Of a stretch of 11,462 nucleotides of DNA, positions 2,312 through 11,462 are shown piece after piece. A model generated the notes under the pieces. The model had not been told where the DNA came from. It saw only the letters and a program-made list of their open reading frames with translations, and ran no database searches. This DNA is from Promethearchaeota archaeon. GTDB lineage: Archaea; Asgardarchaeota; Lokiarchaeia; Sigynarchaeales; MK-D1. Position 1 is the first letter of the stretch; the number at the start of each line of letters is the position of its first letter. Location: assembly GCA_016839385.1 (NCBI GenBank), contig JAEOUK010000548.1, forward strand, positions 1-11,462, written 5' to 3'. The position numbers and the translations under genes are program-made.

Positions 2312-2623
2312 TTATTCATCAGTATTTTCAGATTTAGAATGAAAAATTCTCGAACGTAGTTTTTGAAGCGTGTTTTCTTCTTTTTCTTCGGTTTCTTCAC
2401 CGATTCGATACTCCTTTCGAATGACTAACCAGAATGCACCTAACCCAATAGCTTCAGAAATCAAACCGATAGTAATGATTATTCCCATATTTGCGTTTCC
2501 GAGACGCACTAACCTTGCAAGTAGTGGTCCAAGCATCAGAAGGACCCCTGAGAGAATACCTTTTAGAATGAGTGAGAAGTTAGTCTTGATCCCTTTTATT
2601 AATCGTTGAAAGAAATTTGCCAA
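2312..2623 (-). CDS. Small two-helix membrane protein of unknown function
   Basis: A 103-residue protein that I do not recognise. A short basic N-terminus (about 1-17) is followed by two hydrophobic segments, about 18-38 (rich in G, L and V) and 46-67, joined by a short loop with Arg. A highly charged tail (70-103) contains the acidic run EETEEKEEN and then basic and Ser residues. The positively charged residues around both segments make topology ambiguous, though a cytosolic charged tail is likely. The start is TTG at 2623, supported by a well-placed AGGTG nine bases upstream; no ATG in frame fits. It follows the giant-protein operon on the same strand by 79 bases, with a possible promoter in between. 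It ends tail-to-tail with carS, 5 bases apart. Membership of the operon is possible but not shown. Confidence 0.7.
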   Translation of the reverse strand: MANFFQRLIKGIKTNFSLILKGILSGVLLMLGPLLARLVRLGNANMGIIITIGLISEAIGLGAFWLVIRKEYRIGEETEEKEENTLQKLRSRIFHSKSENTDE

Positions 2624-2632
2624 AATATGTCA

Positions 2633-2637
2633 CACCT
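2633..2637 (-). promoter_or_regulatory. Ribosome binding site deciding a TTG start
   Basis: On the minus strand AGGTG lies nine bases before the TTG at 2623. It matches the archaeal anti-Shine-Dalgarno complement GGAGGTGATC and supports TTG as the initiator of the small membrane protein. Confidence 0.6.
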
Positions 2638-2702: not shown

Positions 2703-5063
2703 TTAAAGATGTTTTTTGAATTTTTGATATAATACTTTATCTAATTTCTTTCCAATTCGGTTTGAGAGTTGATTAGCAATATTCCATCTCTCACCTTCGA
2801 TAATCTCAGTGTCTACTTCACTTTCAGACGGTATCTTTCCAATCCGATTTGAAAGTTCACTGGTAATTAACTCAAATACCTCACTTCTTATTGTTTCTCT
2901 CGGATCTAATATAAAAGCAGGCCAGTGTTTCTTGATACGAGATAATGCAAAATAATAGAAATCGGTAAATAATTCCACAGTTGATTTTGTTCCTAATTCA
3001 CTGTGATTCTTCATATTCTCGGAACAAGCTTTTCCATCCTTATCTTTGTTCCAATATAATGTTGTTGGTGTAATACCTCGAGATGTAATTCGCATCATAC
3101 TTGAGGTAATTCTGCGTTCAATCCAATCTAAAGTATGTAATTCTTGCCCTCTCTTGATTTCTGCTTTTTGTTTTTCACGTTTAAGTAGTTCAATTCGCTT
3201 TGCTTCTTCCACTTGGAGTTTTCTTTTTTCATGTAACATCTTATAGCGTTCCAGTAAATCATATGCAAGACTATAAGAAACTGGAGATATTATGTCTGAA
3301 GGAAGTCTTAAATCTCGAACCTCAGCATAAATTGAACTGGGAGAAGTTTCTAAAGATTTTACGGCATCAGACAATTTGGAATCAAGGAATCGTGCAAGAA
3401 TAAAACCATTTACTAAAAATGGATCTCGTTCTGCGTCAAAAATAGTAGAAAGTTCTTTTTGCCTGCTAGTTATCCTTTTAATTATTAATTCTTCAATTTT
3501 CACAACTACCCATTGTTGATCTTCTGAATGTTCATGGAGTTTTTTAATTGCCATTAAAAATCTGGATTGATCCTCTTTTACCTTATTGTAAGTTTCAAGT
3601 ATTCTACTGATTTGCCTGGTAACCTTTGCCAACATACGGAAATAAATTTCTCGGGACAAATTTAGAAGAATATCATCATGTTCATAGAAAAGAATCATTG
3701 ACGCAAGATTAGTTATAGGTGTATCATTGAGAATGCGTTGCTCAATTCGCAGTTTTTTATGATAGAACCGACGTAAATCAACAGCTGTCATACCAATACG
3801 TTCTGCAATAGTAGTAATGATGTTATTATGTTCAGGATCTGAAGCATCCATTAAATCTTGAATGGTAATACTTTGGATACGTGGATTAATTTGTTTAATT
3901 TTAACAAGCTCAGCTTCAGCATTAGCAATAGGGTTGTTAACAGGATTTCCTATTTTTACTAAATCCATCTTGTTAATCCCATACGTCTTCAATATTTGAA
4001 AAACTCGTTTTTTATCTACACCAAATAAATTAACAAATTCTGGTATATCTACTACCCCTAATCTCTTAAAAAAGAGCGTTATTTCATTGAAATTATATTC
4101 CAATAAACTTTCTAAGAAGTAAATTAAGTAATTAGCTGTTTTTTCTTTACTAATATTGAAGATTTGTTCCCGAATTAAATCTAGTATCTCGTTTTCAAAT
4201 GTTTCATAATCCCGTTTTCGTTTGTTTGTTTGTGCAAATTTCTTAGTTAATTCCTCTCGAAATGAAATAGCATGTTGAAATGCTTCTAATCCTAAAGATG
4301 AAGTGGGAAATACTTCTAAAATATTACGCATTATCTGATTTTGTATTTGATGCATCGGCATTGTTTCAATTTTAAGATCTCGAGCTGTGTTGAATTCAAA
4401 TTTTGCTCTCATTTCATTTTGAATACCGTTTAAGACGGAAAGTTCCATATACTGATCAATATTTTCTTCCTCAATTAGCTCTTCTTCGATTGCTCTACCA
4501 ATAGGTTTGAAATCCGATGATTCCTTTATTATTTGTCGACGTACCTGCTTTGATATTCCCAATAAATCTCCTGTATAATCGAAAAAATATACTATGGGAA
4601 ATTTAAATAGAATTTCATTCAGTTGTTTCTCTAGTTTCTTACGTATTTCCTCACGTTCTTTATCTGGAATTTCTCCTCTCAAATATATCAGAGTGTCAAC
4701 ACAATTTCGTATTAAGTCGTTTTCATACTCCAGTAATTTAATTTCGTAATCAATTGTATCTTTTACTAATGAGGAAAATTCATTGAAGATCTCTTTCTTT
4801 TCGGTTTTTTCAATTAAATCCAATTTATCTGTAGAGACGGATACTTCCATTGGATCTTTGGTATGAATACCCCAATAATCAAAAGCTTGTACAACTGATG
4901 ATGCGATCAATAAATTCGATAACGTGTTCTCTTTCCCACATAATTCATAGATTTTATTTCTGCCTTCATCCCTTCGAAAATGAGATGTGATTCGTTTTGT
5001 TGTTTGGAAAAAAACGTCAGCAGATTCTTCAGCTGTTTCTCTTCTTCTTATGCCATCGATCAA
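2703..5063 (-). CDS. Large helical protein of unknown function (second gene of a two-gene operon)
   Basis: A 786-residue soluble protein that I do not recognise. It has no signal peptide or membrane helix and almost no Cys (42, 121, 680). It appears nearly all-helical. Features I can see: a charged helix at 131-150, and three short segments with a helix-turn-helix-like rhythm (GISKQVRRQII 169-179, GVDKKRVFQIL 348-358, GMTAVDLRRFY 424-434). A strongly charged, probable coiled-coil helix lies at about 603-642. Near the C-terminus LSNRIGK occurs twice (737-743 and 766-772), 29 residues apart. No Walker motif, zinc cluster or catalytic signature was found. The start is TTG at 5063, fixed by a strong AGGAGG seven bases upstream; the nearby ATG is out of frame and quickly stopped. 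It lies 11 bases after the other giant gene, so the two are co-transcribed and probably work together. A DNA-binding or scaffold role is conceivable but unproven. Confidence 0.85.
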   Translation of the reverse strand: MIDGIRRRETAEESADVFFQTTKRITSHFRRDEGRNKIYELCGKENTLSNLLIASSVVQAFDYWGIHTKDPMEVSVSTDKLDLIEKTEKKEIFNEFSSLVKDTIDYEIKLLEYENDLIRNCVDTLIYLRGEIPDKEREEIRKKLEKQLNEILFKFPIVYFFDYTGDLLGISKQVRRQIIKESSDFKPIGRAIEEELIEEENIDQYMELSVLNGIQNEMRAKFEFNTARDLKIETMPMHQIQNQIMRNILEVFPTSSLGLEAFQHAISFREELTKKFAQTNKRKRDYETFENEILDLIREQIFNISKEKTANYLIYFLESLLEYNFNEITLFFKRLGVVDIPEFVNLFGVDKKRVFQILKTYGINKMDLVKIGNPVNNPIANAEAELVKIKQINPRIQSITIQDLMDASDPEHNNIITTIAERIGMTAVDLRRFYHKKLRIEQRILNDTPITNLASMILFYEHDDILLNLSREIYFRMLAKVTRQISRILETYNKVKEDQSRFLMAIKKLHEHSEDQQWVVVKIEELIIKRITSRQKELSTIFDAERDPFLVNGFILARFLDSKLSDAVKSLETSPSSIYAEVRDLRLPSDIISPVSYSLAYDLLERYKMLHEKRKLQVEEAKRIELLKREKQKAEIKRGQELHTLDWIERRITSSMMRITSRGITPTTLYWNKDKDGKACSENMKNHSELGTKSTVELFTDFYYFALSRIKKHWPAFILDPRETIRSEVFELITSELSNRIGKIPSESEVDTEIIEGERWNIANQLSNRIGKKLDKVLYQKFKKHL
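2749..2858 (-). repeat. Short imperfect direct repeat encoding LSNRIGK twice
   Basis: The 23-base segments 2749-2771 and 2836-2858 match at 19 of 23 positions. They are 87 bases (29 codons) apart, in frame, at the 3' end of the 786-residue gene. Each encodes LSNRIGK preceded by E or Q. Conservation at the DNA level suggests either a recent local duplication or constraint on the peptide. Confidence 0.55.
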
Positions 5064-5070
5064 ATTTTTC

Positions 5071-5076
5071 CCTCCT
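5071..5076 (-). promoter_or_regulatory. Strong Shine-Dalgarno overlapping the upstream stop codon
   Basis: On the minus strand AGGAGG lies seven bases before TTG 5063. Its first two bases are part of the TAG stop of the preceding gene (5077-5075). This is a classic coupling arrangement and fixes both the operon and the TTG start. Confidence 0.8.
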
Positions 5077-7411
5077 AGAATTTGGACCGTAATTGGAACC
5101 AGTTATTAGATAAACTTACTTTGTAGAAACTCTCCCAAAATTTGAAATCCAAACTATATATTAGAGGTTTTTCATATTCTGGTTGATCCCTGTTTATTAA
5201 CTTCAAACAAACAGGGCGTGCTATTAATTTTGAAAAATATTTCAACTCAAATTCGTATACGAAATTAAAGAAATCAAGTTTTGTGTGAATTTTAGCTAGT
5301 TTTAATTTCTCAAATCGTTGAGATGAAAATTCTGGATTAATATATTGAATTGCTGGTACAGTATCCATCGTATAAGGAAGTTGAGTTAGAATTTTCAATA
5401 ATTTTTGTTTAACATAAGCGGGAAATTCTTCAATAATTCCCAAGCTATATTCATATTGCTCAAAAACAAGAAGCATTATCTCTTTCTCTTCAATATCTTC
5501 CACTTTGGCAATGTAACTGTCTAATATGTTCATAAAACGTTCAGGTTCGATGTTTTCCTGAATCTTTTTACTTAAAAATTCCATTAAACTGTTTAAATGA
5601 GTGAATTTTGACCAACTGTCCGAATTAGGTATAGTTCGAAGATTTTGTTGGTGCTGTGCAATTAATTCTAATAGATAATATTTCCACTCTATATCAAGAC
5701 CACCTATCCGTTTACGAAGGAATTGGAAGAATTTATAAGAGAGATCTTGAGAAGATGTTCCCTTTTCCTCATCAATTTCCTTAACAAAACGGTTTAATGT
5801 ATTGAACCGTAAAATATAGCTCAATAGAAACTCTAGTTGACTTGCAGCTTTCTTCAAGTTATCCAAATGGATTTTAACTTTGTTTTGATGTTTATCAAGC
5901 ATAATTTCAGTAAATTTAATTAAATCTTTTGGTAGAATTGGTATCTCATCAATGTAATTCTCTACTGCTAATTGGACGATATTCCGAAATTCCTCATTAA
6001 GTAAAGGACGATCATAACGCACGTAAAAGGGATTATTGATAATGCGCTCGTGAATCTGGATAATAAGATGCTCTGCAAATTTTGAAATGTATCGTTCTCC
6101 CAGCGATTTAGCCGGTGTTTGTTCTAATTTAAATTCTTCATTAAGATTCTCAATATATCTATAGAATAACCGTAATAAATGAGTATATGATAGGAAGCGT
6201 TCGACATTAGGTTCTAATAATGTAAAAGAAGCCTCCATCATCTGATTGAAATAATTTATACACGGAGATATTTCATTAAGCCTAACTTTTTCAACATTTT
6301 TGAATGAGCACTCTTGAATAAGGCTAATTTGAGTTTTTAAAATTTCTGCAATACATTTTTTCTTGTTCGGTTCTACTCCACCAAACAGTTCTTTTATTTT
6401 TCGAATAATGTTATCTAAACTATTATTATATCCCGATCGAAGAAATTTATCCAATTTTTGATGAAATTCGATGAATATATCTTTTATTTCTCTAAGATGT
6501 CGTTTAATTTCTATTAAAATTTCTTCACTTGAACAATTATGGGGGATTTTATTTAAACGAGTTTCCAATTCTTCAATGATGGTTTTAATAATTCCTACTT
6601 GAACTTCATTTATACTGCCAGTATTTGCTATTGTGAGTAGTTTTGCTCCTAAATCAATCGTTTTTTGAGCAATATAATACCCACTAGGTCCTGAGATTTG
6701 AGATTTTAGATGTTTTAGTTTCTCATGGTCAGGCATCGTAAATTGCAAGGTTCGATATGTAGGAGATTCCGTATAGATTTCTCGATTAGGACGGTTCCAT
6801 TTGATTTTGTATTTTGATTGTATCTCACCGAATGGTTCTAAATAACTTTCATCATCTGGAGAAGTTGTTCGAATTCCTACGAGTTTTTTATTCCACTCAC
6901 GTTCCAATAATTCACCTTGGACTTTCCGTGCAAATCTTTTTGCAAATTTTGTCAGAACAGCGATTTTTTCATGCTGATTTAATTCAGGACGATCTGCCAT
7001 TTCCAATATTTCAAAAAACAACTTTGAAATCTGTTGTATAGAATTTTGAGCTTTATCCATATCTAGTAAACTGGTTGTATAAGTAAGGGCGAGAATGATA
7101 GTATTGGTTTCTTTGTACTCTCTGGGCATTAAAATCATAGATTCAGGAAGCAATTTTATAGATTCGCGTTTCGGCATGAAATTTTTTAGCTCGAATTCAA
7201 TCGAGTAGATTTCTGTTCCTGAATAATCACGTAACATTGCGTTGTACGCATTTAAATATTCAAGAACTTTCAGAACTAGCTCGTGGGTTTTTTCCTTGGT
7301 AAGTTTACCAACGCCAATAATTTCTCCTACGTCTAAATTCTCTTTTCCTGAAAATCCCAGTATTAAGGTTAGTTGCTTTTGTAACTCTTCAATTGTGGTT
7401 AATGTACTCAT
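5075..7411 (-). CDS. Large helical protein of unknown function (first gene of a two-gene operon)
   Basis: A soluble protein of 778 residues (780 if the first of three tandem ATGs is used) that I do not recognise. The composition is rich in Leu, Ile, Lys and Glu, with long amphipathic helices throughout; there is no membrane segment, signal peptide, nucleotide-binding loop or metal cluster. A less helical, more polar segment lies at about 180-245 and contains aromatic and Pro residues. From about 270 to 680 it reads as successive helix pairs, as in alpha-solenoid or scaffold proteins. The C-terminal 60 residues are rich in aromatics. ATGs occur at 7417, 7414 and 7411. The AAAGGGG Shine-Dalgarno directly abuts the first and is six bases from the third, so I chose 7411. 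The next gene follows after 11 bases. No clear similarity to its 786-residue neighbour was seen by eye. An enzyme is unlikely; a structural partner is the better guess. Confidence 0.85.
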   Translation of the reverse strand: MSTLTTIEELQKQLTLILGFSGKENLDVGEIIGVGKLTKEKTHELVLKVLEYLNAYNAMLRDYSGTEIYSIEFELKNFMPKRESIKLLPESMILMPREYKETNTIILALTYTTSLLDMDKAQNSIQQISKLFFEILEMADRPELNQHEKIAVLTKFAKRFARKVQGELLEREWNKKLVGIRTTSPDDESYLEPFGEIQSKYKIKWNRPNREIYTESPTYRTLQFTMPDHEKLKHLKSQISGPSGYYIAQKTIDLGAKLLTIANTGSINEVQVGIIKTIIEELETRLNKIPHNCSSEEILIEIKRHLREIKDIFIEFHQKLDKFLRSGYNNSLDNIIRKIKELFGGVEPNKKKCIAEILKTQISLIQECSFKNVEKVRLNEISPCINYFNQMMEASFTLLEPNVERFLSYTHLLRLFYRYIENLNEEFKLEQTPAKSLGERYISKFAEHLIIQIHERIINNPFYVRYDRPLLNEEFRNIVQLAVENYIDEIPILPKDLIKFTEIMLDKHQNKVKIHLDNLKKAASQLEFLLSYILRFNTLNRFVKEIDEEKGTSSQDLSYKFFQFLRKRIGGLDIEWKYYLLELIAQHQQNLRTIPNSDSWSKFTHLNSLMEFLSKKIQENIEPERFMNILDSYIAKVEDIEEKEIMLLVFEQYEYSLGIIEEFPAYVKQKLLKILTQLPYTMDTVPAIQYINPEFSSQRFEKLKLAKIHTKLDFFNFVYEFELKYFSKLIARPVCLKLINRDQPEYEKPLIYSLDFKFWESFYKVSLSNNWFQLRSKF

Positions 7412-7417
7412 CATCAT

Positions 7418-10988: not shown

Positions 10989-10994
10989 CTTCCT
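10989..10994 (-). promoter_or_regulatory. Ribosome binding site of scpB overlapping the scpA stop
   Basis: On the minus strand AGGAAG lies six bases before the scpB ATG (10982) and shares its first two bases with the TAG stop of scpA. This supports translational coupling of the pair. Confidence 0.55.
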
Positions 10995-11462
10995 ATACTA
11001 TGTGTCGTGGTATTGATATAATGATATCTTCAAAATCGTTATCTTGATCTATAATTAACCTTCCTCCTGTGCTTAAAAAAAGGAGCGATAAAAAAAGTTC
11101 AATATTCTTTATTTTCTTTCCGTATGCATCCTGTACTTCTTTTGCGATAACCTCGTCACAGATTTCATCATACGTAGTCTCTTTTTTCCCTGTTATTTTG
11201 ATTTGCGTGCGTATTTTGTCAAACCAATAATCCAGAGTCTCTTCAACGGTTCTATCCTTTCCAGTAATATGTCTTAAAATTTCCAATGGAAGTTTGTTAC
11301 TAGACTTTATTATCTTTAATTCAGACCGTCTTTCCTCACGAGCAATTCTTTTTCTACGTAGTAATTCCCTTTTTTGCATTGTTTCAATAATTGCAGCGCG
11401 CATTGCTCCAAATAATTCTTCCCGTGTAGCAATTTTAAGAGGTTCTCTAATTGGTTGTGGCA
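10993..11462 (-). CDS. scpA: Segregation and condensation protein A (kleisin), C-terminal part; 5' end beyond the window
   Basis: The frame is open from the right edge, so the ATG at 11403 is internal and not the start; about 155 residues are visible. Residues before that Met read PIREPLKIATREELFGA, then AMRAAIIETM, the ScpA segment that precedes the C-terminal domain. A basic helical linker follows (KRELLRRKRIAREERR). The end is the kleisin winged helix that docks on the SMC head: VEETLDYWFDKI, TTYDEICDEV, then IELFLSLLFLSTGGRLIIDQ and FEDIIISI. This order matches bacterial and archaeal ScpA C-termini. ScpA bridges the SMC heads and recruits ScpB, encoded ten bases downstream in the same transcript. 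The gene start, and possibly smc, lie outside the window. Confidence 0.9.
   Translation of the reverse strand, partial: PQPIREPLKIATREELFGAMRAAIIETMQKRELLRRKRIAREERRSELKIIKSSNKLPLEILRHITGKDRTVEETLDYWFDKIRTQIKITGKKETTYDEICDEVIAKEVQDAYGKKIKNIELFLSLLFLSTGGRLIIDQDNDFEDIIISIPRHIV

Follow-up and report, generated by a model that had tools for sequence, protein, structure and literature searches.

The 11,462-nucleotide stretch of contig JAEOUK010000548.1 from a Promethearchaeota archaeon (called the window below, always at its full length) carries two large adjacent genes, here named B and A, which form one functional unit, a linkage that is well supported because of their distribution among Asgard genomes. 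In the window's lineage the conserved unit comprises three genes, the third of which, C, encodes a membrane protein. We propose, with about even confidence, that the three genes belong to a single undescribed system in which an A-B structural complex is docked on the membrane by C. The three genes and their translation signals, in window positions, are:

5075..7417, minus strand: gene B, first gene of the operon, 780 residues; open reading frame (ORF), 20 database relatives, purifying selection and an AlphaFold model.
2703..5063, minus strand: gene A, second gene of the operon, 786 residues, TTG start; ORF, 11 database relatives besides itself, purifying selection and an AlphaFold model.
2312..2623, minus strand: gene C, third gene of the operon, 103 residues, two hydrophobic segments; ORF, hydropathy and profile-related members.
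5071..5076, minus strand: AGGAGG, ribosome-binding site of A, overlapping the stop codon of B; read in the sequence.
2633..2637, minus strand: AGGTG, putative ribosome-binding site for C, whose TTG start is 9 bases further on.

B is translated first, and the coding strand at the junction reads TAGGAGGGAAAAATTTG. AGGAGG (5071-5076) overlaps the TAG of B (5075-5077), the TTG start of A follows 7 bases further on and the two ORFs, which fill 41% of the window, are 11 bases apart. A first-pass annotation made from the letters had described exactly this: two adjacent, intact, similar-sized ORFs over about 41% of the window, with an 11-base gap and a perfect AGGAGG over the first stop. It had overlooked the two-transmembrane gene C, which starts 79 bases past A on the same strand according to the ORF list. 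Comparison with relatives showed that A and B are both real genes under strong purifying selection, because pN (nonsynonymous) is far below pS (synonymous) against L002, the nearest relative compared (protein identity 85% for A and 83% for B; pN 0.089 and 0.100, pS 0.765 and 0.762, respectively). Against L003, identities were 48% (A) and 45.5% (B), with pN of 0.344 and 0.349; the divergence rates of the two genes are similar in both comparisons.

The distribution of A and B was surveyed by profile searches in 227 Asgard genomes (G numbers; individual loci bear L numbers). The first profiles detected A in 117 genomes and B in 76. After distant members had been added, the extended B profile reached 125, of which four weak ones (G009, G068, G175 and G219; E-values 1.5e-4 to 6.2e-4) were set aside. 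Each gene was then present in 121/227 genomes, with neither in 105, and 120 of the 122 genomes with either gene had both, the two exceptions being gene pieces (A alone in G100; B alone, at a contig end, in G077). In 116 of these 120 genomes, match edges place B immediately upstream of A in the same orientation, and G162 is a 117th by ORFs; in the remaining three, the pair is cut by contig ends (G215) or the genes are apart (G087 and G088). The first-pass annotation had suggested such a survey and would have counted homologues that are never adjacent against its idea; they nearly always are adjacent (117/120). Spacing is equally tight: among 67 loci with a readable stop and start (the start being placed at the longest ORF), B and A are at most 12 bases apart in 63, 47 of which have overlapping or abutting frames. 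In G137, two B-A-C sets lie inside 13 kb of one region, one of the A genes being a short form, and in G144 an extra B is accompanied by an A fragment. Co-expression of A and B in one pathway without stable binding, for example as successive or mutually regulating factors, would suit the separate contigs on which G087 and G088 hold the two genes; we nevertheless consider it unlikely, since co-occurrence in 120 genomes, overlapping or abutting frames in 47/67 loci and duplication of the set are typical of complex subunits. We rate binding between A and B as quite probable.

Database searches pointed to the same group of organisms. The relatives of A (11 besides itself) and B (20) come, where the organism is named, from Promethearchaeota, Lokiarchaeota, Helarchaeota or an "archaeon", and their products, where named, are "hypothetical protein"; a scan of contigs of GTDB species gave 15 loci, every one titled Candidatus Lokiarchaeota. 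When 19 diverse A sequences served as the profile, the same database set came back, in a search that missed known distant Asgard members. Because relatives in other Asgard lineages escaped it, and as the searches covered no other archaeal phylum whole, absence of A and B outside Asgard is not established.

C was found as a recurrent small gene behind A. An ORF of 60-170 residues with two hydrophobic segments lies within 350 bases downstream of A, in the same orientation, in 13 of the 17 Loki-range loci with room for one, the division between Loki-range and other loci being our own and made by handle order. A profile built from 13 such proteins produced 63 hits at E≤2.8e-8; they are spread over 62 genomes, each of which belongs to the 66 Loki-range genomes that carry A. 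Most of these hits (58) are directly downstream of A, 2 are directly downstream of B and 3 are elsewhere. In all four of these Loki-range genomes that lack C (G093, G096, G108 and G149), A is no more than about 360 bases away from a contig end, a distance taken for G096 via L003, matched by coordinates. The two copies downstream of B belong to the split genomes G087 and G088, and because C stays with B where A and B part, B rather than A is the better guess for the direct partner of C. The C groups (g1 to g4) are largely related by hhalign (g2-g1 93.3%, g2-g3 86.4%, g2-g4 91.5%, g1-g3 91.4%), with scores of 35.4-41.9 for related pairs vs 22.9 for the best shuffle. Relaxing the profile threshold to E≤0.01 gave hits in 107/227 genomes, some carrying A and B and others not, with the weaker hits mostly in longer ORFs; we read most of these weaker hits as chance membrane helices. 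C has no family match in Pfam or NCBIfam, the two libraries scanned for it. The undescribed two-subunit complex put forward as a candidate by the first-pass annotation held as a linked, unrecognised pair and was incomplete for this lineage, where C is a third gene. C-like stretches located away from A in G158, G159 and G161 sit between a 251-264-residue ORF and a 402-414-residue ORF, at:

L185:4399-5607, L186:4521-5765 and L183:3979-5211: context loci of the C-like stretches.

No known family accounted for the two large proteins. Window A and B have no meaningful match in Pfam, NCBIfam, PADLOC, PHROGs or PDB sequences. At E≤1, NCBIfam gave nothing for either, Pfam gave only CGLA_M for A (E 0.2, meaningless) and nothing for B, and PDB sequences gave nothing for A and five matches for B, the best of which (E 0.003, part of an RNA polymerase V subunit) is not meaningful. 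The AlphaFold models of A and B had no Foldseek match in PDB at E≤0.001. What did appear was weak: PHROGs matches for window A (E 0.057 and 0.088) and window B (E 0.0063, tail tape measure), matches of the L083 B to PADLOC DolB (E 0.012) and NCBIfam (E 0.038-0.039), matches of the L078 A (E 0.022 and 0.064), and matches of the L078 B to models of SMC and Rad50, which reach E 8.5e-9 at best, stay far under cut-off and lie inside its coiled coil. Scans with the diverse sets likewise gave weak matches, among the best 25 of 44 families in one case and of 116 in the other mostly to helical and coiled-coil families, with best E-values of 0.0029 for A and 3.9e-6 for B. Hence A, B and C are uncovered by any family model searched, and A and B by any solved structure searched, which agrees with the first-pass statement that neither large protein bears a recognised signature; as far as single-chain models, Foldseek and family searches reach, no confident match has overturned it. 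The claim of newness rests on the lack of a sequence or fold relative with these tools, which did not include HHpred-type public profiles or AlphaFold DB, and not on a known new function. At the level of titles and abstracts, literature searches returned no paper describing the A-B pair or C.

We next considered what kind of proteins A and B are. The A model (pLDDT 84.8) is all-helical, with 76% helix and 1% strand, and the B model (pLDDT 77.2) is mixed, with 62% helix and 11% strand, so that the description "almost entirely helical" given to both at first fits A well and B less so. Neither protein has a 19-residue stretch with a mean hydropathy of 1.6 or more, as expected from the earlier remark that they lack membrane segments, which C does have. 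Invariant residues are few and scattered (nine over 19 A sequences, seven over 21 B sequences) and therefore unlike an active site. We rejected roles for A and B in catalysis, nucleic-acid binding, defence or phage biology, given no meaningful match in the libraries scanned and an isoelectric point (pI) above 8 in 2 of 24 computed proteins. A reading of A and B as paralogues was rejected as well, since they are not detectably related: an hhalign comparison of the two put the probability at 0.2%, and cross-searches were marginal (7 bits at most). A motif C..C-x(5-14)-C..H, aligned near the C-terminus, is present in 53 of 86 distinct A sequences and missing from window A and from A of L001-L003. 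In several other lineages B carries a long insertion, a coiled coil by its matches, that window B does not have. The first ~130 residues of B look alpha/beta, with pLDDT below 50 over much of residues 1-131. A Roadblock or longin identity for this domain (residues 1-135) was plausible by eye and found no support in profile comparisons: hhalign against 20 Asgard Roadblock proteins gave 0.4%, inside the range of 60 shuffles; Robl_LC7 and Longin (PF13774) had no match at E≤10 among 20 B N-terminal domains; and no Longin match fell at a B gene among the matches listed in eight genomes.

These properties suggest how the system could work. One message would yield B and A, joined by C in Loki-type lineages. 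The two large proteins, both soluble, would form a lasting, structural and non-enzymatic complex in the cytosol, for which a scaffold or tether role is somewhat favoured over catalysis. C would be a two-helix membrane hairpin that docks the A-B complex against the cytosolic side of the cell membrane in Loki-type lineages, a docking that we also judge rather likely. Several observations weigh against this proposal. In G087 and G088, neither A nor B is at a contig end, so their separation is genuine and adjacency is not strictly needed. None of 48 non-Loki loci with room has a two-segment ORF within 350 bases after A, and C is thus not a universal subunit. C relatives lie away from A in G158, G162 and G089 (the relative in G005 is also not beside A, which is at a contig end there). 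Direct comparison of C groups g1-g4 and g3-g4 was not significant, and a two-helix protein of a different type (from L077) scored 20.9 (13.5%) against the g2 profile, near the best shuffle. Finally, neither the A nor the B model matches a known scaffold fold.

The nearest known analogues may be eukaryotic helical tethering subunits, namely those of CATCHR type (exocyst, GARP, Dsl1) and with a MUN domain. Such tethers are largely helical, measure about 700-900 residues and act in multi-subunit sets at membranes. A and B resemble them in size and in their mostly helical make-up and, as proposed, in working as a set at the membrane; they differ in that window A and B lack a sequence match (Pfam, NCBIfam) or a confident fold match. 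We know of no counterpart of C among CATCHR-type systems. Dynamin-like proteins gave the best VIA-align rows, and window A and B have no P-loop or GTPase family match. Homologues of GARP subunits are reported to be sparsely distributed among Asgard genomes (PMC10307638), in contrast to A and B, which occur together in 120/227 genomes. More tentatively, B-A-C may be an undescribed, vertically inherited, membrane-docked Asgard scaffold complex that organises the inner membrane face. In such a case the A-B core might predate the split of Loki-type from other A/B-bearing lineages, the two large families and the small membrane family might be without relatives elsewhere, and the function might be tethering, cortex or membrane remodelling, as a non-homologous counterpart of eukaryotic membrane scaffolds. 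A nearly inseparable, constrained pair in 120/227 genomes, joined by a Loki-type membrane partner, points to Asgard cell biology that name-based surveys miss.

The surroundings of the set were compared over 36 loci (the window, L001-L015 and L077-L096). B was found in 35 of them and A in 34; the next family, a Roadblock/LC7 family (F2), was found in 13. No other family exceeded 13/36 loci, which makes ScpAB and TgtA local neighbours; the wider neighbourhood, unlike the pair itself, is not conserved. In the window, a kinase and TgtA (423.8 bits vs a cut-off of 350) are encoded on the opposite strand upstream of B, with ScpB and a ScpA-like ORF further out; the kinase, which we take to be Fap7-like, resembles NCBIfam PRK03839 below cut-off (88.7 bits vs 152). 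The ScpA-like ORF (10993-11403, minus strand) is truncated by the window end, its L001 homologue having 340 residues.

The first-pass annotation had pointed to the tRNA/ribosome maturation and SMC-ScpAB genes next to the pair. A role in chromosome organisation within the SMC-ScpAB system, or in the maturation of tRNA or ribosomes, would account for ScpB, the ScpA-like ORF, TgtA and the kinase near the pair in the window, as well as for the coiled coil of G160-lineage B with its weak SMC similarity (33.7 bits vs a cut-off of 567); coiled coils in some other-lineage B are a further likeness to the condensin. We consider this very improbable: ScpA/ScpB-type neighbours occur in 3/36 loci and TgtA in 11/36, all of Loki type, and as such neighbours change between lineages they lend the role no support. 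Besides, the coiled coil is an insertion missing from window B, pI is rarely above 8, the set includes a membrane protein, and window A and B have no SMC ATPase, ScpA/kleisin or ScpB winged-helix match in Pfam or NCBIfam.

Beyond one lineage, the recurring neighbours that we noticed were the Roadblock family and a family of small GTPases, the latter in three loci. Of the 15 Loki loci, 11 (L004-L009 and L011-L015) have a Roadblock/LC7 gene of F2 close to the set, as assigned from one scanned member (33.2 bits, cut-off 23), and F2 also occurs in L081 and L082. Ras/Arf-like genes are near A in L077, L078 and L091, with a similar unscanned ORF in L130. Such neighbours, together with an A of ~800 helical residues and a membrane protein in C, could fit a GTPase-controlled membrane tether that resembles eukaryotic helical-rod complexes and is regulated by Roadblock proteins and small GTPases; the alpha/beta look of the B N-terminus is a further likeness to Roadblock/LC7 and longin proteins. 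We regard this as improbable, if less so than the chromosomal role, since Roadblock and GTPase genes are common (11-23 Roadblock genes per genome in eight genomes) and the B N-terminal domain, for want of profile similarity, is not recognisably Roadblock. Where the pair is split (G087 and G088), the small GTPase gene and A are on opposite strands, and their ends are 10-11 bases apart:

L091:10833-11453, minus strand: Ras/Arf/Gtr-like small GTPase, scanned, near split A (genomes G087/G088).
L130:7834-8451, minus strand: ORF similar to the L091 small GTPase, by likeness to it (genomes G087/G088).

Two other genes accompany the pair in particular lineages. In G078-G080, a HEAT-repeat gene is directly downstream of A on the same strand, and in G084, G160 and G081 a protein of 130-133 residues that combines a zinc ribbon with two hydrophobic segments (scanned in L077; 13% in hhalign against C) is encoded divergently from B:

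L082:12312-13526, plus strand: HEAT-repeat gene (HEAT_2, 112 bits).
L081:5927-7141 and L097:2889-4085: ORFs similar to the L082 HEAT-repeat gene, by likeness to L082, the one scanned.
L077:12993-13385 (plus strand), L078:1269-1667 (minus strand) and L098:7299-7700 (plus strand): two-segment zinc-ribbon protein.

Variants of A and B were also seen. A short form of A (open frames of 730-744 residues) lacks about 50 residues around positions 380-430:

L180:11253-13460, minus strand: short A form, also in genomes G115, G117, G118, G122, G125 and G128.

A run of N at L085:13208-13307 lies within the frame taken for B, and the resulting 1072-residue ORF is probably an assembly artefact. In G185, a 773-residue, secreted-looking ORF (L177:4016-6337, plus strand) has one hydrophobic segment near its end and repeats that, by eye, we presume to be of SBBP type. 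Its tail is homologous to mid-A (model positions 347-458, E 3.8e-16), a module with 50 matches in the phylum, among which this ORF is the sole one outside an A gene, as judged by position.
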